Source of the DNA: Candidatus Accumulibacter phosphatis
GTDB taxonomy: Bacteria > Pseudomonadota > Gammaproteobacteria > Burkholderiales > Rhodocyclaceae
Assembly: GCF_012939955.1 (NCBI RefSeq)
Contig: NZ_SPMY01000011.1
Coordinates: 62,001 to 126,000 of the forward strand
Reading direction: 5' to 3'
DNA: 64,000 nucleotides
The position numbers were made by a program, and so were the translations under genes. Of the stretch, positions 5,517 through 34,225 are shown in pieces. The stretch's first letter is position 1. Each line of letters opens with the position of its first letter. The notes beneath the pieces are model-generated. The model saw only the letters and a list, made by a program, of their open reading frames with translations. It was not told where the DNA came from and searched no databases.

Positions 5517-6974
5517 TCAGTGGGCTGAGTCGGGATCATGGTCGTCGGCGAGTGTCACAGGTGACGTCGTCACACCCGGCGTGGCGTCGAAACTGTCGCC
5601 AAGCGCCAGATGCAGGCGGACACGGTTGGCGCCCTGGATGGCACGCAGTTTGATGACCACCGCCTGACCCTGGAACTGCGCCGATTGCAGCTGCGCGACC
5701 CAGAGCAGGTCCCGGCGCCCTGCCCGATACTGAATGGTGGCAATGCGCACGGCGGCGCTACGGCTGAGCACGGCTTGTTCCTCAAAAGGTATGCGCCTGG
5801 CCAGCAACTGCTCGTTGGCCAATCCGCTCTCGACTTCGCGGAAGGCAGTCAGCATGAGCGCGCCGTAAGCGGCGACCGCCTGCGCCTGCTGCGCGCTGGC
5901 GATCTCTATTTCTGCGCGCAGCGCGCCGCCTTCGTAAATCGGGATCGACACCCCGATTCCGGCGGCGGCCAGCCACGGATTGAGGCGCAGCAGCGAGAGC
6001 AGATTGTCGCCGAGTCGGCCAGCGGCCAGTGACAGGGAGAAATCAGGCAGCAGCGCCAGTTGCGCGGCTTCCTGCTGACGGAAAGCGGCGAGCACGGCGC
6101 GCTCGGCGGCGACGATGTCCGGGCGGCGTTCGAGCAGCGCGATGGGGGCCCCGGCAGCGGCGGCTGGCGGCAGCGTTGGGTACGACGACGCTACCGCCAG
6201 CTCGGCGGCCGGATAGCGGCCGAGCAGCACCTCCAGGGCACGGCGGACTTCGCCGGCGGCCTGGCGAGATCCTTCGAGATCGCCCCGTGCCGTCTCGAGC
6301 TTGGCGCGCACGTCAACCACGTCGAGGTCGGAATCCTTGCCGGTGGAACGTCTGATTTCCACCAGCTTGAGCAGCTCCCCGAAGACCTGCACGGTCTGCT
6401 CGCCGAGTTCGACCAGCTGCCGCGTCTCGATCGCCAGGTACCAGGTCTTCGCCACCAGCGCCGCCAGCGATTGCCGGGCATGCGCATAATCGAGCGCACT
6501 GACTTCGAACGCCGCCTCGGCCGCGGCGCGTTGGGCGCGCAGCCGACCCCAGAGGTCGACTTCCCAGGCCACCCCGACGTAGGCCAGCGTGCTGTTGAAG
6601 CTGTCGTCCTGATCCTTGTCGCGAATGCTCCTGGCGCCGAGCTGCCCACCGATCTGCGGCGCCAGCTGCGCGCCGACGACCAGCAGCTGCTGCTCGGCGA
6701 CTCGCACACTCTCCGCGGCCACGCGCAGGTCGATGTTATTGGCAATGGCCTCGGCAACGATGGCCTCGAGCAGCGGATCCTGAAAGGACTTCAGCCAGCC
6801 GTCGGCAACCGGTCCGGCCGTGCTCTCCGCCTGCCAGGCAGCGGGAATGTGCGTCGTCGCCGGCAGCGCCTGCTCGACGACCTCGGATTGCGTCAAGGGG
6901 GCCTGCAAGGCACAGCCGGCCAGGGCGACGAGTCCAAACAGCCCGCCGAGCAGGAGGATGATTGGCGCGCGCAT
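5517..6974 (-). CDS. Outer-membrane efflux lipoprotein, NodT/OprM type
   Basis: 485 residues. It begins with a lipoprotein signal peptide ending in the lipobox LAGC (Cys21), followed by two OEP (TolC-like) repeats. Typical motifs are DGWLKSFQDPLLEAIVAEA (residues ~59-77), WEVDLWGRLRA (~137) and RRPDIVAAERAVLAA (~283). It would form the outer-membrane channel of a tripartite exporter. Its start overlaps the stop of the HlyD-type gene by one base (TGATG), so the two are translated together. No inner-membrane pump of the RND, ABC or MFS drug class is between them, so the energising partner is uncertain. Confidence 0.9.
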   Translation of the reverse strand: MRAPIILLLGGLFGLVALAGCALQAPLTQSEVVEQALPATTHIPAAWQAESTAGPVADGWLKSFQDPLLEAIVAEAIANNIDLRVAAESVRVAEQQLLVVGAQLAPQIGGQLGARSIRDKDQDDSFNSTLAYVGVAWEVDLWGRLRAQRAAAEAAFEVSALDYAHARQSLAALVAKTWYLAIETRQLVELGEQTVQVFGELLKLVEIRRSTGKDSDLDVVDVRAKLETARGDLEGSRQAAGEVRRALEVLLGRYPAAELAVASSYPTLPPAAAAGAPIALLERRPDIVAAERAVLAAFRQQEAAQLALLPDFSLSLAAGRLGDNLLSLLRLNPWLAAAGIGVSIPIYEGGALRAEIEIASAQQAQAVAAYGALMLTAFREVESGLANEQLLARRIPFEEQAVLSRSAAVRIATIQYRAGRRDLLWVAQLQSAQFQGQAVVIKLRAIQGANRVRLHLALGDSFDATPGVTTSPVTLADDHDPDSAH

Positions 6975-8128
6975 CAGCCGTTGAAGGGGTACAGCCAGTT
7001 GAACCAGCTGTAGGCACGGATGCCGATCTTGCGCAACACGACGAAGCCGCTATCGGGGTTGGTGTAGATCGTCGCCCGGCCCTGGGTACCGATCGGAAAC
7101 TTCGCTTGATCCTCGTCATCCAGGTGAATGGCCACCGCGAACTGCCCCTGTGGCACTTCGACCGGCACGTAGGAAAAATTCGGCAGCGTACCGCTCGGCA
7201 GCATCTGCCCGGCACCACTGCCCTGCCCGATGGCCGCAACCTTGCCGCGGAAGATCTGCCCGGGACAGAGATCAATCGCCGCCTCGACGATCTGGCCTGG
7301 CTTCACGTACTTGAGGTTCTCCTGGAAGAAGTTGGCCAGCAGGTAGCGATCGGCATCGCAGATGAAAGAGGCGATGGCGCCGAAACGAATCTCGCCGGCG
7401 ACCATGCCCGGACGTACCTGCAGGTTGATGATGTAGCCATCCTCGGGCGCCACCATCAGCGTGTTATCGAGATAGTAGCGCGCCTGATCGAGGTCGGCCT
7501 GGATCTCGGCGACGGTCGTATTGACGCCATTGATCTCGGAGCGATAGCGCAGCCAGGCGCGCTTCTCCTCGGCCTGCGCTTCCTTGACACCGGCCGCATG
7601 GGCCGCTGCCTGGGCGCTCCATTTCTGGGCGTCTTCCTCGGGGCCGGCGCCCTGCCTGGCCAGCTTGATGGAGAGTTTTTCCTGGTATCTGGCGTACTTC
7701 AGCTCGCTACGCAACTTGACGACCTTCTCGACGCTGATCTCGATGTCGCTTTTCATCACCAGCACGTTCTGCGTGGCCTTGGCCAAGGATGCTTCGAGCT
7801 GATTGACCTTGTATTGATAGGGACGACGGTCGAACTGGAACAGCGGCTGCCCCTTCTTGATCGGCACGTTCGGAGCGACCAGCACGGCGGTCACCAGCGT
7901 CGGTTCGGGTAGCCGCGGGACCAGCTGAATGGTGTGCTGGATGAGCTTCGCCTCGGTGGCATAGGGGGCGACGAAACGCAGGCCGAGCATGAAGATGATC
8001 AACAGATGCAGGCCAACGGAGACAGACACCACCCCCCAGGCGATGTTGAACTTCATCCACTTGAACTTGAAGAACACCAGCCACACCACGAGAGCGTAGC
8101 CAAACAGCAGCACAAAACCGAATAGCAT
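6974..8128 (-). CDS. HlyD-family membrane fusion protein, YibH-like
   Basis: 384 residues. Two hydrophobic segments near the N-terminus (residues ~1-20 and ~28-52) are followed by a biotinyl-lipoyl-like half motif (VLVAPNVPIKKGQPLFQFD), a long alpha-hairpin rich in Ala, Lys and Glu (~115-210) and the second half motif (VAPEDGYIINLQVRPG), then the C-terminal beta-barrel. This is the EmrA/HlyD periplasmic adaptor layout; the double N-terminal segment resembles E. coli YibH. A GAGGAG ribosome-binding site precedes the ATG. It pairs with the DUF3302 gene just upstream, as yibI-yibH do in E. coli. Confidence 0.87.
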   Translation of the reverse strand: MLFGFVLLFGYALVVWLVFFKFKWMKFNIAWGVVSVSVGLHLLIIFMLGLRFVAPYATEAKLIQHTIQLVPRLPEPTLVTAVLVAPNVPIKKGQPLFQFDRRPYQYKVNQLEASLAKATQNVLVMKSDIEISVEKVVKLRSELKYARYQEKLSIKLARQGAGPEEDAQKWSAQAAAHAAGVKEAQAEEKRAWLRYRSEINGVNTTVAEIQADLDQARYYLDNTLMVAPEDGYIINLQVRPGMVAGEIRFGAIASFICDADRYLLANFFQENLKYVKPGQIVEAAIDLCPGQIFRGKVAAIGQGSGAGQMLPSGTLPNFSYVPVEVPQGQFAVAIHLDDEDQAKFPIGTQGRATIYTNPDSGFVVLRKIGIRAYSWFNWLYPFNG

Positions 8129-8143
8129 GGGGATCGCTCCTCG

Positions 8144-8512
8144 TCAGCTCGGCGCGCCGCTGGCGGGTGGGGGCTCGGTCCTTGCCCTGGCCGGCGCGGC
8201 GGCCGGCGTGCCGCTAAGGCGGGCGATATCCTCGTCGATGGCGCGTGCCTCTTCGCGCGGGAAGCGTCGGATGTCGATGATCTCGGTCGGTTTGAACGCC
8301 CAGATGAAGGCTTGTACCCACGGGTAGATCGTCGGCAGGAGGCCCGCCCAGCCCATCAGCTTCACCGCTTCCGCCTCGGGGTGATTGCGCGCCAGAGCAA
8401 TCCGGCCGGGCAACCCGGCAAGCCAGACAAAAATCATCAGCACCGCTACACCGGCGGCAAGGGCAGTGGCGAAAGTCGCGTAATCCCAGAAATCGAGTTC
8501 GAAGCCAAGCAT
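8144..8512 (-). CDS. DUF3302 inner-membrane protein, YibI-like
   Basis: 122 residues with two hydrophobic segments (about 9-33 and 53-72) and a cytosolic acidic tail. The block from LDFWDYATFATALA through LAGLPGRIALARNHPEAEAV to GLLPTIYPWVQAFIWAFKP is characteristic of the DUF3302 family (E. coli YibI). Family members sit next to HlyD-type adaptors; the molecular role is not established. A GGGAGG ribosome-binding site stands upstream of the ATG. It is the first gene of the apparent six-gene minus-strand operon reaching the window start. Confidence 0.82.
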   Translation of the reverse strand: MLGFELDFWDYATFATALAAGVAVLMIFVWLAGLPGRIALARNHPEAEAVKLMGWAGLLPTIYPWVQAFIWAFKPTEIIDIRRFPREEARAIDEDIARLSGTPAAAPARARTEPPPASGAPS

Positions 8513-9168
8513 TCCTGATCCCTCCCAAGAGCTGTGTTCGTATCCGCAGCGGCATCATTCCTCAGTCGCAGACGCGGCTTGCACGGCAAGCCTGGGCGAA
8601 TCTTGCCACGAAAAAGCCCTCGCAACCGCTACCGTCGACGCTAAGCACCGGCGCGTCATCTCTCGCCCGCTGCCTTAACGCTGGTTTCGGCAGCCTTTTC
8701 GGCACCTGGGCCGGGCAAATGCAGGTAAGCGCCCGTGCTCCGACGTCCAACAATCTCGATCGCCAACGAGTGGGCGATCTGGTGTCGAAATAATTTACAC
8801 TCGCTCAAGAAATAGACAAAGAAGAAAGCGAAAACTGTTTCCATATCAATTAATTGCCGAAAAAGGCCTAAATTTTGCTTATTCCTTTCGCCGATTGTGC
8901 AACTGTCTTGAGGCTCACTCTCGGAATGACGGTGGCTGGGTTTCCGGTGCACACACCACGCCGCGGGAATTTGACGATTCAGAAGCATGCAATGATCGGT
9001 TTCACGGTGGTGACCGAGAACGCGAAACACTGCGGGACTGGTGCGCCAATCCAGCGCGATCGAATCAAACGCGTTCCTGTCAGCCGAATGGCCGAGGCAT
9101 TCACAGCGTTGCCGACAGGTATCCCGTTCTCGTGTTCTCCCGACTGCCGATGGCAAGGAGTTTTTGCG
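8513..9168. other. Long gene-free interval upstream of the accessory cluster
   Basis: No convincing gene on either strand. The stretch 8780-8890 is clearly AT-rich relative to its surroundings and could hold promoters for the divergent operons. The rest is GC-rich and reads as non-coding or decayed DNA. The frame leading into the cupin gene stays open through much of it, but lacks a plausible earlier start with a ribosome-binding site and shows no recognisable protein. Confidence 0.6.
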
Positions 9169-10596
9169 ATGTATAAACCGATAAATGAACAAAGCAAAGA
9201 CTTGATTGGCGAGCAAGACATGCTTTCCCGCAGTGCGCTGGACGCTGCGCTGCGTGCTTATGCCGAGCAGCCCCAATTTCGCAGTGCGACCGGGGACGAG
9301 GTAATCTTCGATAACCCTTTTCACCGACCGGTTCGCGCACAGGATTTGTCTTTTCTGGATTTTTCTCGACCTGTCGATCAAGACCACGTTCATGCCTTGT
9401 GCTCACTCATGGGCAACCGCATGCTCTTCAACATCTATGAGGCGGATCTTTCCTTCGTTGGCGAGTCGCTTTCGCAGCAAGCTCACACCGACCGCGCCGC
9501 GTTCTACTCGACTGCTAACCGAGTGCTCGGCGAGCGCGTGCGCGGTGCGCTGGAGCGCCACTGTTTTGCCTGGATTGACGATGCGCTGCACGATACGGAC
9601 GAAGAACCGGCGAGCCTGATCGAGCGCTCGCTCGCCGAGTTCGAGAACTCGGCGAGCGCCGTCGCCCATACGATCGAGGGATCGGCTTCCAGCACCCGCA
9701 TGGCGCAACTGCTAGCGATTCAGATCTGCGGTCCGCTGCGCGCTCGCGACTTCGCACGCCAGCGCTACGTGGTCGCCGGTCTCGATGGTCACTGGAACGA
9801 GTGGATCGCCGCTGCTGCAGGGGTAGTACCCGCCTGGCGCAGAGCCTATCCGGCTTTGGCGAATGCTGCGCAGCTGAGCACAACTCCGCACGCGTATTGG
9901 CAGTTCTACCTGGGATCGCAGCTTGCCGTTGCCAACTATCTGGCTCGCACATTGAGGGCACCGAGCCGCTTCTTTGAAGCTGCGGGCGCCATCGTCGCAG
10001 ATCGACTTTGCTCACTCCAACTCGCCCGCTGTTGGCGCGAGGTTTTTGTTTCGGCATTTGGCAGCGATATGTTCTGGTCGAGCGATGAGCAAGGCGGCGG
10101 CAGCGACGCTCTGTGTAGCGAAGCCCTGAAACTGCTCGAAAAAACGCCGGGAGCAGAGCAAGCGGAGTGCTTGAACGCCTTCAAGCGAGGCCTCCAGGGA
10201 ATGTGCCGGGTTTGGGTCGCTGCCAACGAGGATCTCGGGCGGCAGATCGCTTGGGCGGGTCACCCCGCCGAGCATCGCGCGCTTGCCGAAGATTACATGC
10301 GCATCATCCGTGATCGGGCTTTGGCGGTAGCCATGGAAACCTACGTCGAGCCATCGAGCGAGCGATCGACAACGCACGTTCACGATACCGACCGGCTGTT
10401 GGTCATCGAATCGGGCGAGATGGATTTCTGGCACAGCTACGGCCAGCCCTTGCATTTCGAGCCCGGCGACATGATCTTCGTGCCCAAGCATCGTTTGCAT
10501 GGCTCAGTCGTCACCACTGACCAGTGTGTCTATCACCAGCCGATCGTGGACGCAAAGCTGCGCGAACTCGTCGATCGACTGCGATCAACGCACTAG
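9169..10596 (+). CDS. SznF-like protein with C-terminal metal-binding cupin
   Basis: 475 residues from the ATG at 9169, chosen because AAGGAG lies 8 bases upstream. Residues ~1-390 look all-helical with no clear motif; the block TPHAYWQFYLGSQLAVANYL (~239-258) suggests a heme-oxygenase-like fold. Residues ~395-460 are a cupin with His403, His405 and His444 as candidate metal ligands (THVHD ... PKHRLHG). From memory, the N-nitrosourea enzyme SznF (471 residues) uses His407, His409 and His448 in its cupin: same spacing and similar total length. The diiron ligand set of the SznF central domain is not evident; only Glu211 falls at an equivalent place. It is followed in the same frame by a single TAG and then the adenylation protein. 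Role: probably oxidative rearrangement of an N-hydroxylated guanidine, by inference. Confidence 0.62.
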   Translation: MYKPINEQSKDLIGEQDMLSRSALDAALRAYAEQPQFRSATGDEVIFDNPFHRPVRAQDLSFLDFSRPVDQDHVHALCSLMGNRMLFNIYEADLSFVGESLSQQAHTDRAAFYSTANRVLGERVRGALERHCFAWIDDALHDTDEEPASLIERSLAEFENSASAVAHTIEGSASSTRMAQLLAIQICGPLRARDFARQRYVVAGLDGHWNEWIAAAAGVVPAWRRAYPALANAAQLSTTPHAYWQFYLGSQLAVANYLARTLRAPSRFFEAAGAIVADRLCSLQLARCWREVFVSAFGSDMFWSSDEQGGGSDALCSEALKLLEKTPGAEQAECLNAFKRGLQGMCRVWVAANEDLGRQIAWAGHPAEHRALAEDYMRIIRDRALAVAMETYVEPSSERSTTHVHDTDRLLVIESGEMDFWHSYGQPLHFEPGDMIFVPKHRLHGSVVTTDQCVYHQPIVDAKLRELVDRLRSTH

Positions 10597-10608
10597 CGGC
10601 TTGATGCC

Positions 10609-12732
10609 GTGGATGCGACCCTCCTTTCGGACACTGCCGACCTGGCAACAGCGAATGCCGAACAGTGGCGGTCCAGTCCAGACTTGGCGCTAGACGCGGT
10701 ATGGCTGGCAAGGCACAAGCTGCGCCCTGAGGAACTGCTGATTGCCGCATTCGGGCTCGTCGTGGCGCAGATCCACGACGCCGATTTGGTAAACCTTGGC
10801 GTCGTCCTCGATGGCTCATCAGGAACGCTGCACTCCTTACAGCTGACCACCTCGCCGTCGCAGGATCTCGTTCAGCTATGTCGCGAAATCGGGCGCCAAA
10901 CTCGCCGACGCAGCAGCGACCCGGCAGCGGAAGCCTTCGACGCCCGGCTGACCATCACCCACTCGCGCCGGGCTATTCCGGCTGCCGTGCCCGCAGCATC
11001 TGGCCTTGCTCTCGAGCTTGTTCTCGATGGACTGCGCGTAAGTGAAATCGCGATTACCTACGACGATCGGATCACTGCGCCAGCGCTGCTGGAGTGGCTC
11101 GAGCGCGGATTCCTGCGCGCCATTGCCAGCATTCCGAATTGTTGCGTCAGCAAGGATATCGAGTGGCTCGCTCAGGACGAATACGATCGCATCGTCTATC
11201 AGTGGAATGCGACCAGCGCACCCTACGCCTACGAACAGTGCCTCCATTGGCTTTTCGAAGCACAGGCGCGGCGCACACCCGATGCCGTCGCACTGGAGAT
11301 CGACGGGCAAGCGCTTTCCTACCACGAACTCGAGCGACGTTCGCGTCAGCTGGCCTGCGAGCTGCGTAATCGTGGCGTTGATTGCGACGTGCTCGTACCG
11401 CTGTGCGCTGAGCGCTCGCTGGCCATGGTGGTCGGAATTCTCGGGATACTACGCGCCGGTGGCGCCTACGTGCCGATCGATCCACGCTTTCCTGCCGACT
11501 ACAACGCGCGCGTCGTCGAAGACAGTGCTCCGCGACTGATCGTCACCGAGTCACGATGGCAGGCCCATATGGCGAGCTTCGGGCTGCCGGTGCTGCTGAT
11601 TGACGAACTTCCCGTAGCCGGCGAGCCGGCATTCTGCATGCGACTCGGGCGGCCAGAGGGGCTTGCCTGCGTGATGCATACATCGGGGTCTACAGGAGTG
11701 CCCAAAGGGACTCTCCTCGAACACCGCGCGCTTCTCAACAATCTGTTCTGGTTGCAAGAGCACTGGCCATTGAGTGCTGGCGAGGCGGTACTGCAGAAAA
11801 CGCCCTTCACATTCGACGTCTCGATCAAGGAGTTCCTCTGGCCGCTTTGCTTTGGTGGGCGACTCGTCCTGGCGCAAGCGGGCAAGCATCTGGACATCCC
11901 TTATCTTGGCAAACTCATACAGCAGCACCATGTTGCCGTGGCTCACTTCGTACCATCGATCCTCCAGGCTTTCGTGGCGCTACCGGGCGTTGGCGCCTGT
12001 ACCAGCCTGCGCTTGGTGATGTGTGGTGCCGAGGTGCTTCCGCCTGAATTGGTCAGCCGCTTTTTCGCCGTGCTCGAGGCCAAGCTTCTCCACCTTTACG
12101 GGCCGACCGAGGCAGCCATCTCGGTAACCGGATGGGAATGTGATCCGCGCTCAGAGCCCCTGCGCGCCGTCCCTTTGGGGCGGCCCATGGCCAATGTGCA
12201 AATCCACGTGCTCAATCGGGCGCAGCGCCCAGTTCCTCCTGGTGTCAGCGGCGAGCTTTATATTGGTGGCATCGCCCTTGCACGCGGATATTTGCGCCAG
12301 CCCGGCCTTACCGAGCAGTGCTTCGTTGTCGACCCGTTCGGCGTTCCGGGGAGTGTTGGCCGTCTCTATCGATCCGGAGACCGCGCCCGCTACACCGCTG
12401 ACGGTGTCATCGAGTTTCTCGGTCGCTTCGATCAGCAAGTGAAGATCCGTGGCGCCAGAGTCGAGCCAGGAGAGATCGAGAACACGCTGCGCAAGCACCC
12501 CGCCCTGGCGCGCGTCGCGGTCACTGTGCGCGCCGACCGCAACGGACAGAAGCGCCTTGTCGCCTACGTAGTCGGCAGGGCTGGTCCGGCTCCCGGCCCC
12601 GCCGACCTGCACCAGTTTTGCCGCGCGAAACTCCCGGGTTACATGATGCCCAGTGCTTTCGTGGACCTAGCGCAGCTACCTCTTCTCGCCAACGGCAAGG
12701 TCGACTACGGCGCATTGCCGAACCTGACTTAG
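10609..12732 (+). CDS. NRPS-type adenylation protein with C-terminal half of a condensation domain, no carrier domain
   Basis: 707 residues from GTG 10609. Residues ~35-200 resemble the C-terminal lobe of a condensation domain, ending in the usual linker (YDRIVYQWNAT); the HHxxxDG half is absent. Residues ~210-700 are a complete adenylation domain: A2 at ~279 (GILRAGGAYVPIDP), A3 at 356 (MHTSGSTGVPKG), A5 at 496 (LYGPTEAAI), A7 at 587 (YRSGDRAR), A8 at ~605 and A10 Lys697 (NGKVDY). By hand alignment the specificity residues read D403 V404 K407 H446 M471 G473 L496 I504 S505 K697, a code I do not recognise. The protein stops 10 residues after A10, so a carrier protein must act in trans or none is used. 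There is no clear ribosome-binding site, and the gene is in frame with the cupin gene across one TAG codon. Confidence 0.85.
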   Translation: MDATLLSDTADLATANAEQWRSSPDLALDAVWLARHKLRPEELLIAAFGLVVAQIHDADLVNLGVVLDGSSGTLHSLQLTTSPSQDLVQLCREIGRQTRRRSSDPAAEAFDARLTITHSRRAIPAAVPAASGLALELVLDGLRVSEIAITYDDRITAPALLEWLERGFLRAIASIPNCCVSKDIEWLAQDEYDRIVYQWNATSAPYAYEQCLHWLFEAQARRTPDAVALEIDGQALSYHELERRSRQLACELRNRGVDCDVLVPLCAERSLAMVVGILGILRAGGAYVPIDPRFPADYNARVVEDSAPRLIVTESRWQAHMASFGLPVLLIDELPVAGEPAFCMRLGRPEGLACVMHTSGSTGVPKGTLLEHRALLNNLFWLQEHWPLSAGEAVLQKTPFTFDVSIKEFLWPLCFGGRLVLAQAGKHLDIPYLGKLIQQHHVAVAHFVPSILQAFVALPGVGACTSLRLVMCGAEVLPPELVSRFFAVLEAKLLHLYGPTEAAISVTGWECDPRSEPLRAVPLGRPMANVQIHVLNRAQRPVPPGVSGELYIGGIALARGYLRQPGLTEQCFVVDPFGVPGSVGRLYRSGDRARYTADGVIEFLGRFDQQVKIRGARVEPGEIENTLRKHPALARVAVTVRADRNGQKRLVAYVVGRAGPAPGPADLHQFCRAKLPGYMMPSAFVDLAQLPLLANGKVDYGALPNLT

Positions 12733-12751
12733 GCATCAAAGGAGAACGCGT

Positions 12752-13579
12752 ATGCTTGCCACCGAACCGTCAGTAGCGTCTGACTATCGCGCACGCCTAA
12801 TGCTTGGCGACAGGATCGGCAGAGCCGTTCAGCCACCCGACTGGTTTGCGGAGTCCTACGAGATCTTTCAGGCAATCGTTAGCAATCCCGCGTACCCCTG
12901 CCACTTTGGTAGCGCTGCCGAGAGCCGAGGTGAACTCTATTACACGATTGCCGATTCATGCCCCGGACAAACACTGGCGCGAACCTTGCAGAATTTTCTT
13001 GCCAGTGCCAGGCTCGCCGCGCGCCAGAGGCGAAACCTGACGATATTCTTTCCCCCCGACGAACGGCCCCTTGGCATTACAGACTACCAGGAGCGATTTT
13101 GGTCCACGCTTGAGGCGCTATCCGAAGCCGATCCAAGCCCTTGGCCAGAGCATATTTCGTCGCAGCCCGACAGCCCGGATTGGGAGTTTTGCTTCGCTGG
13201 CGAGCCAATCTTCGTTTTTTGCGGTGCCCCTTGCTACCGGCTGCGCTCCAGTCGCAATCTTGGCCCCGGAATGATTATCCTCATGCAACCGCGCAGCTCG
13301 TTCTTCGGTATCGAAGGCGACTCGCGCGCTGGAATTGAAGCGCGGAAGAAGACCCGCGAACGGCTGGCGCAATGGGACCAAATGCCGGCGCACCCCGACC
13401 TCGGGGTCTACGGCGATGCGGCGAACCGCGAATGGAAGCAATACGCACTGCCTGACAGCAACTCGCGGGTGACCGGCAAGTGTCCCTTTCTCAACACGGG
13501 AGCAGGAGGCCTGGGAAACCCTGACGTCCACATGGGTGATACCGCGCCGGTTAATGGCTGCGAAAGCGGCCATTGGTAG
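12752..13579 (+). CDS. YqcI/YcgG family protein, candidate heme-dependent guanidine N-hydroxylase
   Basis: 275 residues with a good AGGAGA ribosome-binding site, 19 bases after the adenylation gene. Family features are YPCHFGSAAESRGELYYT near the N-terminus, a central LTIFFPP strand (~96-102), the block FCGAPCYRLRSSRNLGPGMI (~156-175) and the C-terminal KCPF (~243-246). The best known member, DcsA of D-cycloserine biosynthesis, is a heme protein that hydroxylates the guanidine nitrogen of L-arginine; related proteins occur in diazeniumdiolate (graminine) siderophore clusters. Pairing with an SznF-like cupin protein and an adenylation domain supports a role in N-oxygenating an arginine-like substrate. 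The C-terminal ~30 residues after CPF are longer than I expect and of unknown purpose. Confidence 0.78.
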   Translation: MLATEPSVASDYRARLMLGDRIGRAVQPPDWFAESYEIFQAIVSNPAYPCHFGSAAESRGELYYTIADSCPGQTLARTLQNFLASARLAARQRRNLTIFFPPDERPLGITDYQERFWSTLEALSEADPSPWPEHISSQPDSPDWEFCFAGEPIFVFCGAPCYRLRSSRNLGPGMIILMQPRSSFFGIEGDSRAGIEARKKTRERLAQWDQMPAHPDLGVYGDAANREWKQYALPDSNSRVTGKCPFLNTGAGGLGNPDVHMGDTAPVNGCESGHW

Positions 13580-13709
13580 ACCTTTGGCAGGGGCTATTCT
13601 CCAGAACACCCTGCTGGGCGTGATTGACCATTCGCCATGCCTCTCCTGCGTCCACGAGTTGCTGAAACGCCACCGAAAGCCCGCTTTGAGCAAGGCCGGA
13701 CAAAACACC

Positions 13710-14612
13710 TCAGAACATCAGCCGCGCCAGCAACAGGCCCGTGGACACGGCGGTAGCGGTGGCCACGAGGCCCGGGATCATGAACGAGGGATTGAGCACG
13801 TACTTGCCGATCTTGGTGGTCCCTGACAAGTCGAAGTTGATCGCCGCAATCAGGGAACCATAGGTCGGAATGAAGAAGTCGCCATTGACCGACGGAAACA
13901 TCGCGATCAGGAATTGCGGTGGAATCCCGAGCACGATCCCCAGCGGCATCAGCGCCCGGGTCGTCGCCGCCTGACTGTAGAGCAGCACCGATGAGAAGAA
14001 GAGGCCAAAGGCAAAGGTCCACGGCGCGACTTCCGCCAGATGCCCGATCGCCGGCACGATGACCTCCTTGTTGGCAGCGATGAAGCTGTCACCCAGCCAC
14101 GCCAGACCGAAAATCCCGATGACCGCCACGACGCCGGCGCGGCGCGTCGCCGTCTTGGGAACTGCGTCGACATTCACCCTGGTCAGCATCAGCATGATCG
14201 CCGCGACGGACATCATCACCACTTCGATCACGATCGGCATGCCGATGGCGCCCTTGGCGCCGCACAGCTGTCGCAAGTCGGGGAAGAAGCCCAGCAAGAC
14301 GACCAGCGCGACACCGCTCAGAAACAGGTAGGCGGAGATTTTGGCTGCTGGCTTGTGCGGCTGTCGATCGGCGGCCGCCTGCGGTGCGGGTATGTCGCCA
14401 GCCGCCAGGCGCGCCCGGTACTCGGGATCGTCCTTCAGATCCTTGCCGAGAAACATCGAGACCAGGGCGCCGGCCACGACACCGGTCAGCGTGGCCGGAA
14501 CGCAAATCATCAAAATCTGCGGCAACCCCCATTGCGTCATCCCCTTTTCGGCGAACAGACCAATCATCGCCGCCGTCGCAGCCGCCACGGGACTGCCGGT
14601 GATCGCAGTATA
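13710..14612 (-). pseudogene. 5'-truncated anaerobic C4-dicarboxylate transporter (DcuA/DcuB family)
   Basis: The frame from about 14612 down to the TGA at 13710 encodes ~300 residues of a Dcu-type antiporter: YTAITGSP, several membrane helices and FFIPTYGSLIAAINFD near the end. Family members are about 440 residues, so roughly the first 140 are missing. Upstream of 14612 the same frame reads non-homologous sequence and reaches a TAG at about 14680. The only starts available are internal (for example GTG 14588). This looks like a gene beheaded by a deletion or insertion and now inactive. It lies convergent to the accessory cluster, 130 bases from its end. Confidence 0.7.
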
Positions 14613-16569: not shown

Positions 16570-17703
16570 TCAGTAGAGGTAGGAGAGCCAGCTCATCAGG
16601 CGGATGTAGGCCGCGCCGAGCGTGTTCATCAGGAAGTTGTCGCCGGTGTAGACCATCACCTCGGCCTGACCGCCGATGCGTACCTTGCCCAGACGCTTTG
16701 CCTCCGTCGCATCGAACTCGACAGCCACCGGGAAGCGCTGCGCCTGGCGCAGCCAGTCGCGACTGTTTTCGATCGTCGGCAGCGTTCCCGGCGGCGCCTG
16801 CTGGGCGGAGCTGACGCCGCTGCCAACGCTGCGCACGCGGCCTTTCAACACTTCGCCGGGGAGCATATCGAGAACGATTGCCACTTCGTCGCCGGGTTCG
16901 AGGTTGCCGAGGTTGTTCTCGGTCATGTCCGCGCTGATCCACAGGTCGCGGATCGCAATCAGCGTCATCACCGGCGCACCTGCCTGTGCGAACTGACCGA
17001 CTTCGGTGCGCAGATCGGCGACACGGCCGCCGGCGGGGGCGACCACTTTCGTGCGCGCCAGGTCGAGCGCGGCCTTTTCGATCGCCGCGCGCGCGCTGCG
17101 CAACTGTGCGTTGTTGTCACCGGCCTCGCCGGCGGCTTCCTGCGCCTTGCGCACGTCGGCTTCGGCAGCCTTTGTCCGGCTGCGCGCCTCGACCCCTGTC
17201 GCCTGTGTGACCTCCAGTCGGCGCACCGATATCGCGCCGGGATCCTCGGCGTAGAGCGCCTCGTGCCGCGCCGCGTCCTTTTCGGCCTTGACTTCATTGG
17301 CCTGCGCTGCCTGCAGCGAGGCGCGCGCGGCGGCCACGGTCTCCACCGCGGCATTGACTGAACTGCGCACCGATTCGAAGTCCGAGCGGCTGCGTTGCAG
17401 CGCGATCCGGTATTGCTCCGGGTCGATGTCGAAGAGCGCTTGCCCGCGCCCCACGTCGTCGTCGTTCCTGACGTGAACCGCGAGCACCTTGCCCGCCACC
17501 TCGGCGGCCACCGGCACCACAAAAGCCTGGACGCGGGCCTGCGAGGAGTACGGAGTGACGCGATCGGCGGCAAAATACCAGAGCAGGCTGCCGCCGATCA
17601 GCGCCAGCACGACCGTCGCGCCGATACGGCTTGCCTTCCCCGCTTGCGGCGCTTCGCTGGCGGCTACGGTCGACGGGTCCTGGCTGGACGATTCCTGGCT
17701 CAT
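16570..17703 (-). CDS. HlyD/EmrA-family membrane fusion protein
   Basis: 377 residues: a short cytosolic N-terminus, one membrane anchor (~27-47), half lipoyl motif (VAAEVAGKVLAVHVRNDDDV), a long alpha-hairpin (~110-210), second half motif (VVAPAGGRVADLRTEVGQF) and C-terminal barrel. This is the canonical EmrA-type adaptor that bridges an inner-membrane permease and an outer-membrane channel. Its ATG overlaps the stop of the upstream NodT gene by 4 bases; the DUF2955 gene follows. Confidence 0.88.
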   Translation of the reverse strand: MSQESSSQDPSTVAASEAPQAGKASRIGATVVLALIGGSLLWYFAADRVTPYSSQARVQAFVVPVAAEVAGKVLAVHVRNDDDVGRGQALFDIDPEQYRIALQRSRSDFESVRSSVNAAVETVAAARASLQAAQANEVKAEKDAARHEALYAEDPGAISVRRLEVTQATGVEARSRTKAAEADVRKAQEAAGEAGDNNAQLRSARAAIEKAALDLARTKVVAPAGGRVADLRTEVGQFAQAGAPVMTLIAIRDLWISADMTENNLGNLEPGDEVAIVLDMLPGEVLKGRVRSVGSGVSSAQQAPPGTLPTIENSRDWLRQAQRFPVAVEFDATEAKRLGKVRIGGQAEVMVYTGDNFLMNTLGAAYIRLMSWLSYLY

Positions 17704-19265
17704 CGTGCTTCCCTCTCTGGTGTGATCTGTGGCGGACCGGCATCGGGTGGCGGCAGAGGCACTGCCAGCATCTCCCGCCAGGCGCTGCGCTCGGCCATCG
17801 TCTCGCGCGTCGCGTCGTCAACCAGCGGCCGCTTGCGCCCCTGCTGCCAGCCACCGCCCATCGCCTTGTATAGCGTGACCAGGCTCTGTGCAACATTTCC
17901 CATGGTGTTGACCTGCCGCTCCTGCTGGCTGAACAGCGCGCGCTGCGAATCGAGTACGCGCTCGAAGCCGGCCATCCCCTCGCGGTACTGGAGGGTGGCG
18001 ATAGCGAGCGAACGCCGCGCCGCCTTGACCGCCTCCTCGAGCAGGGGCAGCTGGTCGCGGTTGGCGACGAAGCCGGCGGCGGCGTCATCGACTTCGCGCG
18101 CCGCCGCGAGCACCGTCCCCTGGTACTGCTCATAGAGTTGCTGGAAGCGAGCGTCCTGGACCAGCACCTCGTTGCTCAGGCGGCCGTGGTCGAAGACGTT
18201 CCAGACCAGGCTCGGGCCTATTCCCCAGGCGAGTGTCCGCGGCGAACCGGACAGCGACGTGGCCGAAAGGCCGAGCGATCCCAGCAAGGCAATCGACGGG
18301 TAGAGGTCGGCGACGCTGACGCCGATCAGCGCCGACTGCGCCGCCAGTTGCATCTCCGCTGCGCGCACGTCAGGGCGGCGGCGCAGCATCCCTGCGGGCA
18401 TGTCGGCGACGACCGCGAGCCCGGTCTGCGGGATGCGTTGCCGGCCTGCCGCCATTTCCGGCAGGGGTCCCGGCGAGCGGGCGAGCAGTACGGAGAGCGC
18501 GTTTTGCGTCTGGCGCAGGCTGCCCTCCAGTTGCGGGATGGAGGCAAGCGTGCTCAGGTACTGCGACTTCGCCTGCTGCACGTCGAGTTCGGAATCGTTG
18601 CCGTGCTTGAACAGCCGTTCAGTGATCTCCAGACTGCGCTTCTGTAGTGCGGCGTTCTCGTGCGCGATCGTCAGGCGCAACTCAAGGGTGCGGATCGCAG
18701 CGTATAGAGAGGCGGTCTGCGCTGCCACCAGCACCTGCATGTCGTCGTACTGGGCGATGCTGGCGAAGTAAGCGGCGTCGGCGGCCTCGATGCTGCGCCG
18801 GAACTTGCCCCAGAAATCGATTTCCCAGCCGACGCCAAAGCCGATGCTGTACGCCGTCAGCGCGCTGTCCGGCCCGCTGCTGGCCTCGCTTCCCGTGCGC
18901 AGTACCGCGCCGGTCACCTGCTGCTGTTGCGGATAGAGCAGGCTGCCGGCGATCGCCAGTTGCGCGCGCGCCTCGAGGATGCGCATGCCGGCTGTGCGCG
19001 CGTTCGGGTTGGCGCGCTGCGCCTCGGCGACCAGCGCATCAAGCACCGGGTCGTCGAAGTTGCGCCACCATTCATCGCCCTCCGGCCGCGGACGCTCGCG
19101 CTTTTCCGCTACCAGCGTCGCCAGCGAGCCACCCGACCAGCCAGCCAGCGCCGGCACTTCGGGCCGCTTGAAGTCCGGCCCGACCGCCACGCAGCCGCCG
19201 AGCAACAGCGCAGCAGCGAGAGCGGGCAGGCGCGGGCCGGTGGCGCCGGCGAAGCACCGCCGCAT
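17700..19265 (-). CDS. Outer-membrane efflux lipoprotein, NodT type
   Basis: 521 residues from ATG 19265, chosen because it gives a clean lipoprotein signal peptide ending LLGGC (Cys~22) and lies 4 bases after the preceding gene; an upstream in-frame ATG gives only a proline-rich non-signal extension. Motifs include VGPDFKRPEVP after the lipobox, DEWWRNFDDPVLDALVAEA, WEIDFWGKFRRSIEA and RRRPDVRAAEMQLAAQSA, all standard for RND-type outer-membrane factors. It supplies the outer-membrane channel for the adaptor encoded next. This is the second NodT in the window; the two differ considerably in sequence. Confidence 0.9.
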   Translation of the reverse strand: MRRCFAGATGPRLPALAAALLLGGCVAVGPDFKRPEVPALAGWSGGSLATLVAEKRERPRPEGDEWWRNFDDPVLDALVAEAQRANPNARTAGMRILEARAQLAIAGSLLYPQQQQVTGAVLRTGSEASSGPDSALTAYSIGFGVGWEIDFWGKFRRSIEAADAAYFASIAQYDDMQVLVAAQTASLYAAIRTLELRLTIAHENAALQKRSLEITERLFKHGNDSELDVQQAKSQYLSTLASIPQLEGSLRQTQNALSVLLARSPGPLPEMAAGRQRIPQTGLAVVADMPAGMLRRRPDVRAAEMQLAAQSALIGVSVADLYPSIALLGSLGLSATSLSGSPRTLAWGIGPSLVWNVFDHGRLSNEVLVQDARFQQLYEQYQGTVLAAAREVDDAAAGFVANRDQLPLLEEAVKAARRSLAIATLQYREGMAGFERVLDSQRALFSQQERQVNTMGNVAQSLVTLYKAMGGGWQQGRKRPLVDDATRETMAERSAWREMLAVPLPPPDAGPPQITPEREAR

Positions 19266-19269
19266 CGGC

Positions 19270-20403
19270 TCAGGCGGTGGTGGAGGAGGAATCGGCAGCA
19301 GGCCGTGTCGATGTCCGTTCCGGATTGTCAGCCACCCAGCGCATGAAGATCTGGTAGCCCAGCGCCAGCAAGGTCGCGCCGATGAACATGCCGAGGATGC
19401 CGGTCGTGGCCATGCCACCGAGTGCGCCGATCAGGATCACCGGCATCGGCGCATCGACGCCGCGGCCGAGCATCAGCGGTTTCAGGACGTTGTCGGCCAT
19501 GCCGCCGACGAACAGCAGAACGGAGTAGGCGGCGGCGGCAACGGTACCGTAGTCGCCGCTCGTCCAGATCCAGCCGATCACCGGCAGCGTGACGAGCAGT
19601 GCTGGCAACTGTGCGATGCCGAGCACGAGGACGACCACGGCCAGCACGCCGGCGAACGGGACGCCGGCGATCATCAGCGCGACGCCGATGATCAGCGCCT
19701 GAATACAGGCGATGCCGATGACGCCCGAGGCGACGGCACGCACCGTCGCCGTCGACAGCGTGGTGAACTCCTTGCCGCGGGCCAGCCCGGCGATACGTTC
19801 GAAAATCTCCAGCATCGCCTTGGCGCCCGCTTCGCCCCAGGCCATCATGATGCCGGCGACGATGAACGAGAAGATGAACATCAGCAGGCCACCGCCGAGG
19901 CCGGCGACCATGCCCAGTGCCTTGCTCGCCAGTTCGCCGATCTTCGGCTGCATGGTCTTGACCAGTGCCGGCAGGTCGGCGTGCGCCTGCGACCAGAACT
20001 CATGCACTTTCTCGCCCACCACCGGCCAGGAAGCCACCTTGTCGGACGGCGCCGGCACCTGGATCGTGTTGTCGCGCACGCCGTGGACCACGCCTTGCAC
20101 CGAGTCGCCGAACTGGCTGGCCAGCATGACGGTCGGCGTGATGATGACCGCGACGGCGAGCAGCACGATGAGCGTCGACGCGAGCCCCTGCTTGCCACCG
20201 ATCCGTGCGGCGAGCATCTGGTGCAGCGGATAGATCGTGATCGCCAGGATCAGCGCCCACAGCATCATCGACATGAATGGCGAGAAGATTTTGTAGCACA
20301 GCAACACCAACGCCAGGACCAGGCCGGCGCGGATAAAGACGTCGAGCAGGCGACGTGACAGACGGTCTTCCAGTTCGTGGTCGGGTTCGCGAGGGGCGGT
20401 CAT
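19270..20403 (-). CDS. AI-2E family transporter (UPF0118 permease)
   Basis: 377 residues from ATG 20403, which has an AAGGAG site; the longer frame upstream is proline/histidine-rich and non-homologous. About eight hydrophobic segments are seen, with the family pattern of paired N-terminal helices (SPFMSMMLWALILAITIYPL), a soluble middle region and a GIAQLPALLVTLPVIGW stretch. Members include E. coli TqsA/YdiK-type permeases with varied or unknown cargo, including Na+/H+ exchange. It is the first gene of the five-gene minus-strand operon. Confidence 0.85.
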   Translation of the reverse strand: MTAPREPDHELEDRLSRRLLDVFIRAGLVLALVLLCYKIFSPFMSMMLWALILAITIYPLHQMLAARIGGKQGLASTLIVLLAVAVIITPTVMLASQFGDSVQGVVHGVRDNTIQVPAPSDKVASWPVVGEKVHEFWSQAHADLPALVKTMQPKIGELASKALGMVAGLGGGLLMFIFSFIVAGIMMAWGEAGAKAMLEIFERIAGLARGKEFTTLSTATVRAVASGVIGIACIQALIIGVALMIAGVPFAGVLAVVVLVLGIAQLPALLVTLPVIGWIWTSGDYGTVAAAAYSVLLFVGGMADNVLKPLMLGRGVDAPMPVILIGALGGMATTGILGMFIGATLLALGYQIFMRWVADNPERTSTRPAADSSSTTA

Positions 20404-29347: not shown

Positions 29348-30727
29348 TTAGCGATGGGCGGCGAGCTTGTCGCGCCAGCCGGGATAGAGAGTATCGGCGT
29401 CGCCCGGGAAGGACGCAAAAGCACGCGCAAATTCCTGGTGCTCGCGAGCCCATTCGATCGGGTCGGCGCCGGCTTGCCAGCACTCGTAGGCCTGGCGCAG
29501 TGAAATCGCGCCGGCGGCGGGGCTGTCGATGTGGCCGTAGGAACCGCCCCCCGAGGTGTTGATGACGTTGCCGTGGCCGAGGTTGGCGAAGAAGCCGGGC
29601 AGGCGCAGGGCGTTCATGCCGCCGGAGATGATTGGCGTCGTCGGCTTCATGCCGTACCACTTCTGGAAATAGGCCGGGCCCTGATATTCGTCGCGTTCGA
29701 TGATGTAGGCGATCGCCCGGTCGTCGGCCGTGCCTTCCATCTTGCCGTAGCCCATGGTGCCGACGTGAATTCCCGAGGCACCCTGCAGACGTGCCATCTT
29801 GGCCAGCACGTAGGCATCGTAGCCGCGCTTCGAGCTTGGCGAGGTGACCGCGCCGTGCCCGGCGCGGTGGTAATGCAGGTACTGGTTGGGGTACTGGCGG
29901 CGAGCGGTGGTGACCATGCCCGGACCGCCGACATAGCCGTCAACCAGGAACGCGACCTTGTCGGCGTCGGGCCCGAAAGTTTCGAGGATGTAGTCGGCAC
30001 GGGCGCACATTTCGTAGTGATCGTCGGCGGTGATGTTGGCCGAGAACAGTTTCGCCTGCCCGGTCTCGTCCTGCGCCCGCTTCATCGCGTCAGCGACCAG
30101 CGGCATGACTTTCTTCATCGGCGCGAACACCTGGTTGCCCTGCGGCTCGTCGTTCTTGATGAAGTCACCGCCGAGCCAGAACTGGTAGGCGGCCTTGGCG
30201 AAGGGTTCGGGGCGCAGCCCTAGCTTGGGCTTGATGATCGTCCCGGCAATGTAGCCACCGTCCTTTAGCGGGCGACCGAGGATCCGCCACATGTCGGAAA
30301 TGTCCTTGGCCGGACCGTCGAACAACTGCAGCGCGCGCTCGGGCACGTAGAAGTCATAAATCTTGGCGTGCTCGATGTCACCCATGCCCTGATTGTTGCC
30401 GATCACCAGGGTCAGGAAGGAAACGATCATCATCCGTCCGTCGGTGACGTTGCGATCGAAAAGGTCGACCGGATAGGCGATGCGCATCTCTTCGCTGGCT
30501 TCGTCGATCAGATAGACCAGGGCATCGACACCGCGGGTGAAATCGTCGGTGGTACACACCTCGACGTTGGTGCCGGTGGACGACTCGGCGGCGAAATGTG
30601 CAGCCGCCTGCAGATAGTCGTAACCGGCCTTGGGCTTCATCTTGTAAGCCACCAGGATATGCTTGCCGCCACTGATCAGATCGTCTTCCCTGAGGCTGAG
30701 GTCGGCGTAACGATTCGATTGGTCCAT
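29348..30727 (-). CDS. cbbM: Form II ribulose-1,5-bisphosphate carboxylase/oxygenase
   Basis: 459 residues from ATG 30727 (GGAG site); an upstream open frame is the cbbY stump region in another context. The form II signature is clear: catalytic Lys in [12 protein letters not shown], the carbamylated Lys and metal ligands in [10 protein letters not shown], His in HYHRAGHGA, loop 6 [10 protein letters not shown] and [11 protein letters not shown]. It carboxylates ribulose bisphosphate to two 3-phosphoglycerates in the Calvin cycle, as a dimer or higher oligomer. Form II enzymes suit low O2 and high CO2. It is first in cbbM-cbbQ-cbbO and diverges from tkt-gap. Confidence 0.97.
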
Positions 30728-30760
30728 GCTTGTCTCCGTGTCGAGTAATGGTGAAGGGCA

Positions 30761-30968
30761 ACTTGCCGCAGGTGACGACCGACCACTCCCAGCCCGGGCC
30801 AAACTGCGCAAAGGCGCGGTTGAAGGCCAGGCGGTGAGCGTCGCGTTCCGTCTCGGCGAGTGCCCCGTCAACGTCGAAAATGAGCGCCTGCCGCTTGACC
30901 GTTTGCCGCCGCGCCGCGCGGAAAAGGAGGCTGCTGCTCATGGGGCGTTCGGCCGGCGGGTTGTGCAT
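30761..30968 (-). pseudogene. cbbY remnant (HAD phosphatase N-terminus)
   Basis: The minus-strand frame encodes [20 protein letters not shown] followed by [17 protein letters not shown], matching the start of CbbY-type phosphatases (usual motif DVDGTLAETE). The Thr after DxDG is Ala, and homology ends after about 45 residues where a normal CbbY needs ~200 more. It lies directly upstream of cbbM on the same strand, so it looks like a deletion relic within the cbb operon. Confidence 0.7.
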
Positions 30969-31009
30969 TCGGGTCGCCTGGCGTCGTTCAATGCTGGCCA
31001 GTGTAGGCG

Positions 31010-31045
31010 GCGCAATAGATAATTAAAAGTTAAACTTTTTTCTGT
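31010..31045. promoter_or_regulatory. Possible CbbR (LysR-type) binding site between cbbM and tkt
   Basis: An AT-rich patch in otherwise GC-rich DNA contains TAA-N7-TTA and the inverted repeat AAAAGT-TAA-ACTTTT (31025-31039). This fits the loose TNA-N7-TNA pattern of CbbR boxes. No cbbR gene is in the window. Confidence 0.35.
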
Positions 31046-31217
31046 TTATGGTTAGCTTTTACTATTCAAAAGAGAGCAGCGTAAGAGCAATGCCTATCTG
31101 TAGTGACAAGCAGACCCCTCCTCGCGCTGCGTCACAAGGGGAGGTGGCAATGCCCGCTGTTTTGGCGGATAATTTGCCCATGCTACCCATCGCCCCACTC
31201 CTGATCGGTTAATTATC

Positions 31218-34225
<3,008 letters not shown>

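Follow-up and report, generated by a model that had tools for sequence, protein, structure and literature searches.

The cassette and its three products

The window, by which we mean the whole stretch of 64,000 nucleotides analysed here, sits on contig 7 of a Candidatus Accumulibacter phosphatis genome (5,044,133 bases, 149 contigs, 97% complete). Accumulibacter are wastewater bacteria. As the sequence-only reading had it, the window holds three adjacent plus-strand genes (Table 1). They form one tight operon, with 12 nt between gene 1 and gene 2 and 19 nt between gene 2 and gene 3. Shine-Dalgarno-like sequences precede the first and the third gene, and by eye none was seen upstream of gene 2. 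No sigma-70-like site was found in 8500-13900, and no clear promoter motif common to the window and its relatives was seen. These relatives are a genus-mate (Candidatus Accumulibacter, genome G297, locus L002) and a Propionivibrio (genome G195, locus L003), which carry the same three genes in the same order, at 66-71% protein identity to the window and within different flanks. The sequence-only reading had made its case depend on such co-occurrence elsewhere.

Table 1. Features of the three-gene cassette and of its right flank, in window coordinates.
Feature	Position	Strand	Description
Gene 1	9169..10596	+	SznF-type protein, 475 aa; dead HDO domain, intact cupin site; proposed N-N-bond-forming step
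Gene 2	10609..12732	+	NRPS-type adenylation protein, 707 aa; GTG start; no carrier domain; code DVKHMGLISK
Gene 3	12752..13579	+	YqcI/YcgG protein, 275 aa; C50 in YPC motif; proposed heme arginine N-oxygenase
Shine-Dalgarno-like AAGGAG ahead of gene 1	9155..9160	+	Read directly
Shine-Dalgarno-like AAAGGAG ahead of gene 3	12738..12744	+	Read directly
DcuA/DcuB transporter fragment	13710-14588	-	Profile positions 144-368 of 368 only; N-terminal part missing from ORF

The gene 1 product aligns to SznF over nearly its whole length (residues 20-456, E 5.8e-43). Its predicted model is moderate (mean pLDDT 68.5, with stretches below 50), and a structure search with it returns SznF chains as its first 12 hits (best E 8.8e-21, TM 0.73). 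The structural match on which the earlier claim hung was thus found. That claim spoke of an SznF-like cupin protein. The likeness to SznF stands; the cupin-only description does not, as we are dealing with a whole SznF-like protein that has lost the metal site of its oxygenase domain (HDO). We scored seven HDO ligand positions, among them E189, which we take to be one of those of SznF. With the SznF numbering anchored on the cupin motif, the expected letters stand at all 11 positions. Six of the HDO residues and the four cupin residues are named in PMC11705231 (papers are cited here by PMC identifier).

All four cupin catalytic residues are kept in gene 1 (H403, H405, H444 and Y455), and their positions in SznF numbering (H407, H409, H448 and Y459) are kept in each of the window, L002 and L003. 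HDO diiron ligands are kept at 1/7 positions in the window (D315), 0/7 in L002 and 1/7 in L003, where the single positions of such dead proteins move between alignments and none keeps more than two. Ten other SznF homologues keep 7/7. With the HDO ligands lost and the cupin residues kept, the gene 1 product should not oxygenate arginine and may still carry out the rearrangement. An SznF-like N-nitrosourea synthase was considered for gene 1 and ruled out, since the metal site of a functional diiron HDO is gone.

Gene 3 encodes a YqcI/YcgG protein (PF08892, 1.7e-65; 221.2 bits for a cut-off of 27). Hence the SznF and YqcI/YcgG homologies claimed from the letters hold, and the families of the cassette had been correctly named. 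DcsA is a heme N-oxygenase of the same family. A search of solved structures up to E 5 finds AglA chains only (E 1.4e-42). C50, in a YPC motif, aligns with the AglA cysteine and is kept in 4/4 aligned proteins. The GntA model of NCBIfam scores far under its cut-off (34.3 bits vs 145). A Tistrella graminine-cluster protein comes first of the 48 plasmid records that match gene 3 (45.1% identity), and no YqcI match was found in phages. In ChmN, Cys47 is the axial ligand, and the products are N-delta-hydroxy- and dihydroxyarginine (PMC10849742). We infer that C50 is the equivalent of Cys47 and propose that gene 3 encodes a heme arginine N-oxygenase.

The product of gene 2 matches AMP-binding (3.7e-79) and AMP-binding_C and, up to E 1, neither a carrier (PP-binding included) nor a condensation domain, which agrees with its earlier description as a carrier-less adenylation protein. 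All three copies stop shortly past motif A10, with no carrier (T) domain of an NRPS module, and all three keep the catalytic A10 lysine; the L003 copy deviates at motif A7 (YRTRD). Alignments of EntF and PvdL begin at residue 149, so the C-A linker is present. Residues 1-148 gave nothing significant (no Pfam hit; only weak, unrelated matches in NCBIfam and the PDB). We also considered a condensation-domain remnant for this N-terminal part; hhalign aligned a portion of it to the ends of Tistrella condensation domains, though not significantly (probability 1.4%, E 0.038), and the part stays unassigned. The structure model of gene 2 is uninformative (mean pLDDT 35.3).

The specificity code DVKHMGLISK is identical in the three copies. 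It is not the code of graminine-activating A domains, DVHRTGLVAK (PMC10391617), with which it shares 5/10 positions. Both codes are basic at positions 239 and 278 (K and H in gene 2, H and R in the graminine code), and the corresponding pocket residues K407 and H446 would suit an anionic diazeniumdiolate side chain. Against graminine as substrate, the A domain is no nearer to the Tistrella graminine module (identity 0.35) than to the other three complete modules (0.36-0.38). As a control, the code procedure recovered the published codes, that for graminine among them, for 4/5 A domains of the Tistrella ORF; the fifth is interrupted and gives no usable code. Graminine may still be the substrate of gene 2, because the code of ChmO is likewise reported to differ from the usual graminine code (PMC10849742).

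Pairing with the proposed heme enzyme, spread and probable transfer

We found a YqcI/YcgG gene in the fetched stretch at 5/5 loci with a dead HDO and at 0/10 loci with an intact one, among 15 SznF-homologue loci that are not independent (the window, L002 and L003 belong together, and the pairs L025/L026 and L027/L028 each come from a single genus) and whose fetched stretches span 17-41 kb, so that a YqcI gene further away would be missed. The loci counted are the window, L002-L006, L015, L025-L028 and L030-L033; duplicates (L007-L009, L016, L017, L019 and L020) and weak partial matches (L018, L021, L022 and L039) were left out. In 3/3 cassettes the YqcI/YcgG gene lies in the same operon as gene 1. 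In published work, graminine biosynthesis is marked by an HDO-dead SznF homologue next to a heme oxygenase of the YqcI/YcgG family (PMC10849742, PMC6771848, PMC9679993). There, 107 ChmN homologues are said to colocalise with SznF homologues predicted to be HDO-inactive, the logic being that the heme enzyme stands in for the HDO domain (PMC10849742); our counts match it. Hence the N-N chemistry cannot be called undescribed, as it had been at first, since the pairing is that of GrbD/GrbE and ChmM/ChmN.

Isotope work derives graminine from arginine and shows that its N-N bond links N-delta to N-omega (PMC9679993). Graminine makes up for the loss of grbD or grbE, and in a root-protein assay the free amino acid released nitric oxide (PMC6771848). 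The activity of ChmM is described as unreconstituted in PMC10849742, and the cupin step therefore rests on knock-outs and homology.

The intact homologues include four plasmid loci (L030 9881-11628, L031 9863-11637, L032 9896-11619 and L033 9302-11003; HDO 7/7). In all four a Rieske 2Fe-2S gene directly follows, and in three (L031-L033) an ATP-grasp gene lies within a few genes after it. They make up a second cluster type, likely with its own electron donor.

Gene 1 occurs in 2/28 genomes of the genus and in 3/395 of the family draw; counts in the order, phylum and class draws are 4/399, 5/398 and 2/369 (own genome included throughout; memberships overlap). The last three draws gave no further three-gene set, leaving aside the weak partial matches L018, L021, L022 and L039. 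The full-length homologues that they did give (L016, L017, L019 and L020) keep HDO 7/7 and have no YqcI gene when fetched wider (L025-L028). No relative was found in viral contigs.

When the first 25 kb of the window are compared with the two 21-kb relatives, the cassette is all that is shared, with blastn similarity over 9245-13498 (L002) and 9245-13489 (L003). PurH identity is 86.8% between the window and G297 and 80.4% between G297 and G195; for the cassette proteins the values are 65.6-70.6% and 81.0-87.2%. The cassette thus disagrees with the one core gene tested. Third-position GC is 0.66-0.69 in the cassette, compared with 0.80-0.86 in seven flanking genes, which bears out an earlier remark on composition. 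Disagreement and composition together speak for horizontal transfer, as had been suggested. The flanking scars invoked at the same time fare less well. The DcuA/DcuB fragment right of the cassette fits the idea; the 16-nt direct repeat with one mismatch that brackets the cassette (8542-8557 and 13936-13951) may be chance, as short two-copy repeats often are.

Ka/Ks is 0.17-0.25 per gene (three genes, three pairs), 0.13-0.17 for the A domain of gene 2, the lowest of the parts measured, and 0.39-0.56 for its faster-evolving residues 25-180; these ratios are rough, because Ks approaches or exceeds 1 in comparisons involving the window. Judged by them, the cassette is under purifying selection, with the A domain kept most strictly. 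Together with the recurring gene order, they make the cassette more than a chance assembly.

A setting without an assembly line

Above the cut-off, condensation domains are absent from 3/3 cassette genomes. The own genome, 97% complete, has no match of any kind; G297 has one sub-cut-off match (23.8 bits vs 30.6), which counts against an NRPS-free reading. Five PP-binding (carrier) matches were found in the own genome, all on other contigs and some in large proteins. Large carrier-domain ORFs lie at L023 (G000 C57 27000-35000) and L024 (C27 29500-37500); among them are a frame of 1181 aa, seemingly PKS-like on inspection by eye, and an ORF of 956 aa that weakly resembles A domains (26%). TonB plug matches number 3, 1 and 2 in the three cassette genomes, those of the own genome again on other contigs. 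The early view that the locus has neither an NRPS nor a receptor beside it is thereby confirmed. A local siderophore locus was accordingly set aside: the own genome has no condensation match, TonB plug matches are few (3/1/2), and the compared stretches share no other gene.

Genes for an outer-membrane efflux protein and a HlyD-type adaptor flank the cassette on both sides, at 5517-8128 and 16570-19418 (-). They were considered as part of the cassette and rejected, being not common to the flanks of L002 and L003. Likewise, L002 has a gene for an Orn/Lys/Arg decarboxylase upstream of its cassette (6472-8709, minus strand), one not common to the flanks of the other two copies. Further along the window, a RuBisCO large subunit gene adjoins a transketolase gene (29348-33203).

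The graminine branch of the antiSMASH rule for NRP metallophores, as quoted, asks for condensation and AMP-binding domains in one gene, along with GrbD and GrbE (PMC12971057). We found no condensation match in the own genome or in gene 2, hence no such gene, and under this rule the cassette would not be flagged. The open-access literature searched gave no account of such an NRPS-free graminine cassette, and the papers that one such search brought up do not mention Accumulibacter. The N-N chemistry is already known; the NRPS-free setting and the carrier-less A protein are what is unusual.

A proposed route to graminine, its rivals and known systems

We consider it probable that the cassette, horizontally acquired, converts L-arginine to L-graminine or something closely related to it, with no NRPS assembly line involved. 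The gene 3 product, a thiolate-heme enzyme, would hydroxylate the arginine guanidine at N-delta and then at N-omega, as its family suggests. The cupin metal site of gene 1 alone would then turn the dihydroxyguanidine into graminine, by a rearrangement that bonds N-delta to N-omega and expels carbon and nitrogen; family and conserved residues point this way, and the oxygenase domain would be a structural leftover. The gene 2 product may adenylate the outcome and hand it directly to an amine acceptor or to an unlinked carrier protein. This role is the weakest step of the proposed pathway: none of the three copies has a carrier gene beside it, and no acceptor was identified. The pathway would end in graminine or a small conjugate of it, at once a metal ligand and a nitric-oxide donor, which may, as first suggested, be a free amino acid or a small signal. 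More tentatively, one might speculate that this is a mobile and self-contained NRPS-free pathway in which the A protein, having no carrier, attaches graminine straight to an amine. A diazeniumdiolate amino acid would then be used carrier-free, and the result would be a small signal that diffuses and either donates nitric oxide or binds metal.

A domains of the NRPS type normally work with a carrier, and the own genome encodes five PP-binding matches, large proteins on other contigs among them. Gene 2 might thus load graminine or a precursor onto a carrier encoded elsewhere, with another enzyme system finishing the product and the cassette acting as an input module; N-nitrosation of a carrier-bound substrate has indeed been raised as a possibility (PMC10849742). 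Yet there is no carrier beside the cassette in 3/3 copies, no condensation domain above the cut-off and no gene beyond the trio shared in the compared stretches, and we think this scenario rather unlikely.

We give still less credence to the idea that the cassette is what decay has left of an NRPS cluster for a graminine siderophore, in which case genes 1 and 3 may still work and gene 2 is a useless stump. The missing carrier, the C-A linker, the faster N-terminal part (Ka/Ks 0.39-0.56) and the deviant A7 motif of L003 would fit decay, but the frames are intact, the truncated shape is the same and the code is the same, each in 3/3 copies, and the A domain evolves slowly (Ka/Ks 0.13-0.17). Finally, a product other than graminine, such as hydroxyarginine, a free nitric-oxide source or an N-nitrosourea-like compound, would accord with the N-nitrosourea made by the SznF cupin (PMC11705231), with the hydroxyguanidine kept in some YqcI/YcgG pathways (PMC10849742) and with the differing code of gene 2, but seems improbable, given that a dead HDO with YqcI is tied to graminine in each named case (gramibactin, tistrellabactin and chalkophomycin) and that, of the named plasmid relatives of gene 3, the tistrellabactin protein comes closest.

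Graminine-type chemistry has so far been described within large gene clusters for metal-binding peptides. If the preferred reading of an NRPS-free graminine pathway is true, this chemistry reaches beyond NRPS metallophore clusters and can travel as three genes. The three-gene pathway would also offer a compact system in which to reconstitute the cupin N-N bond step, still open in PMC10849742. It raises the question of why these bacteria would make a nitric-oxide-donor amino acid.

The closest known systems are GrbD/GrbE of gramibactin and MobE with the N-terminus of MobF of tistrellabactin, which pair the same dead-HDO, live-cupin SznF homologue with a YqcI/YcgG protein to turn arginine into graminine. 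We compared the Tistrella copies (L015) directly, at 31.6% identity for gene 1 and 45.1% for gene 3, with HDO 1/7 and cupin 4/4, and gramibactin by description. These genes sit in NRPS siderophore clusters (PMC6771848, PMC10391617), whereas the cassette has no condensation domain in its genome and a carrier-less A protein. MbtH and fhuF lie near the Tistrella genes, and the Tistrella YqcI/YcgG segment (L015 21319-22176) is in frame with the start of a long NRPS ORF, as also reported in PMC10391617. ChmM, ChmN and ChmO of chalkophomycin, likened here by description, also bring together a dead-HDO SznF homologue and a heme arginine N-oxygenase, and ChmN would be the first case of a hydroxyguanidine that does not remain in the final product (PMC10849742). 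ChmO, however, is a C-A-PCP protein in an NRPS/PKS cluster (PMC11085572), where the cassette has a bare A protein.

SznF/StzF of streptozotocin shares its overall architecture and cupin catalytic residues with gene 1. Yet SznF has a full diiron site and oxidises methylarginine itself, whereas gene 1 keeps 1/7 ligands. AglA and GntA have the family domain and the YPC cysteine in common with gene 3, AglA being the best solved match and GntA falling below its cut-off. For gene 2, a precedent by function is found in McbA, reportedly a carrier-free amide synthetase that forms amides in an ATP-dependent manner. Synthetases of this type would show how an adenylate can be used without a carrier; gene 2 differs from them in being an NRPS-type A domain.
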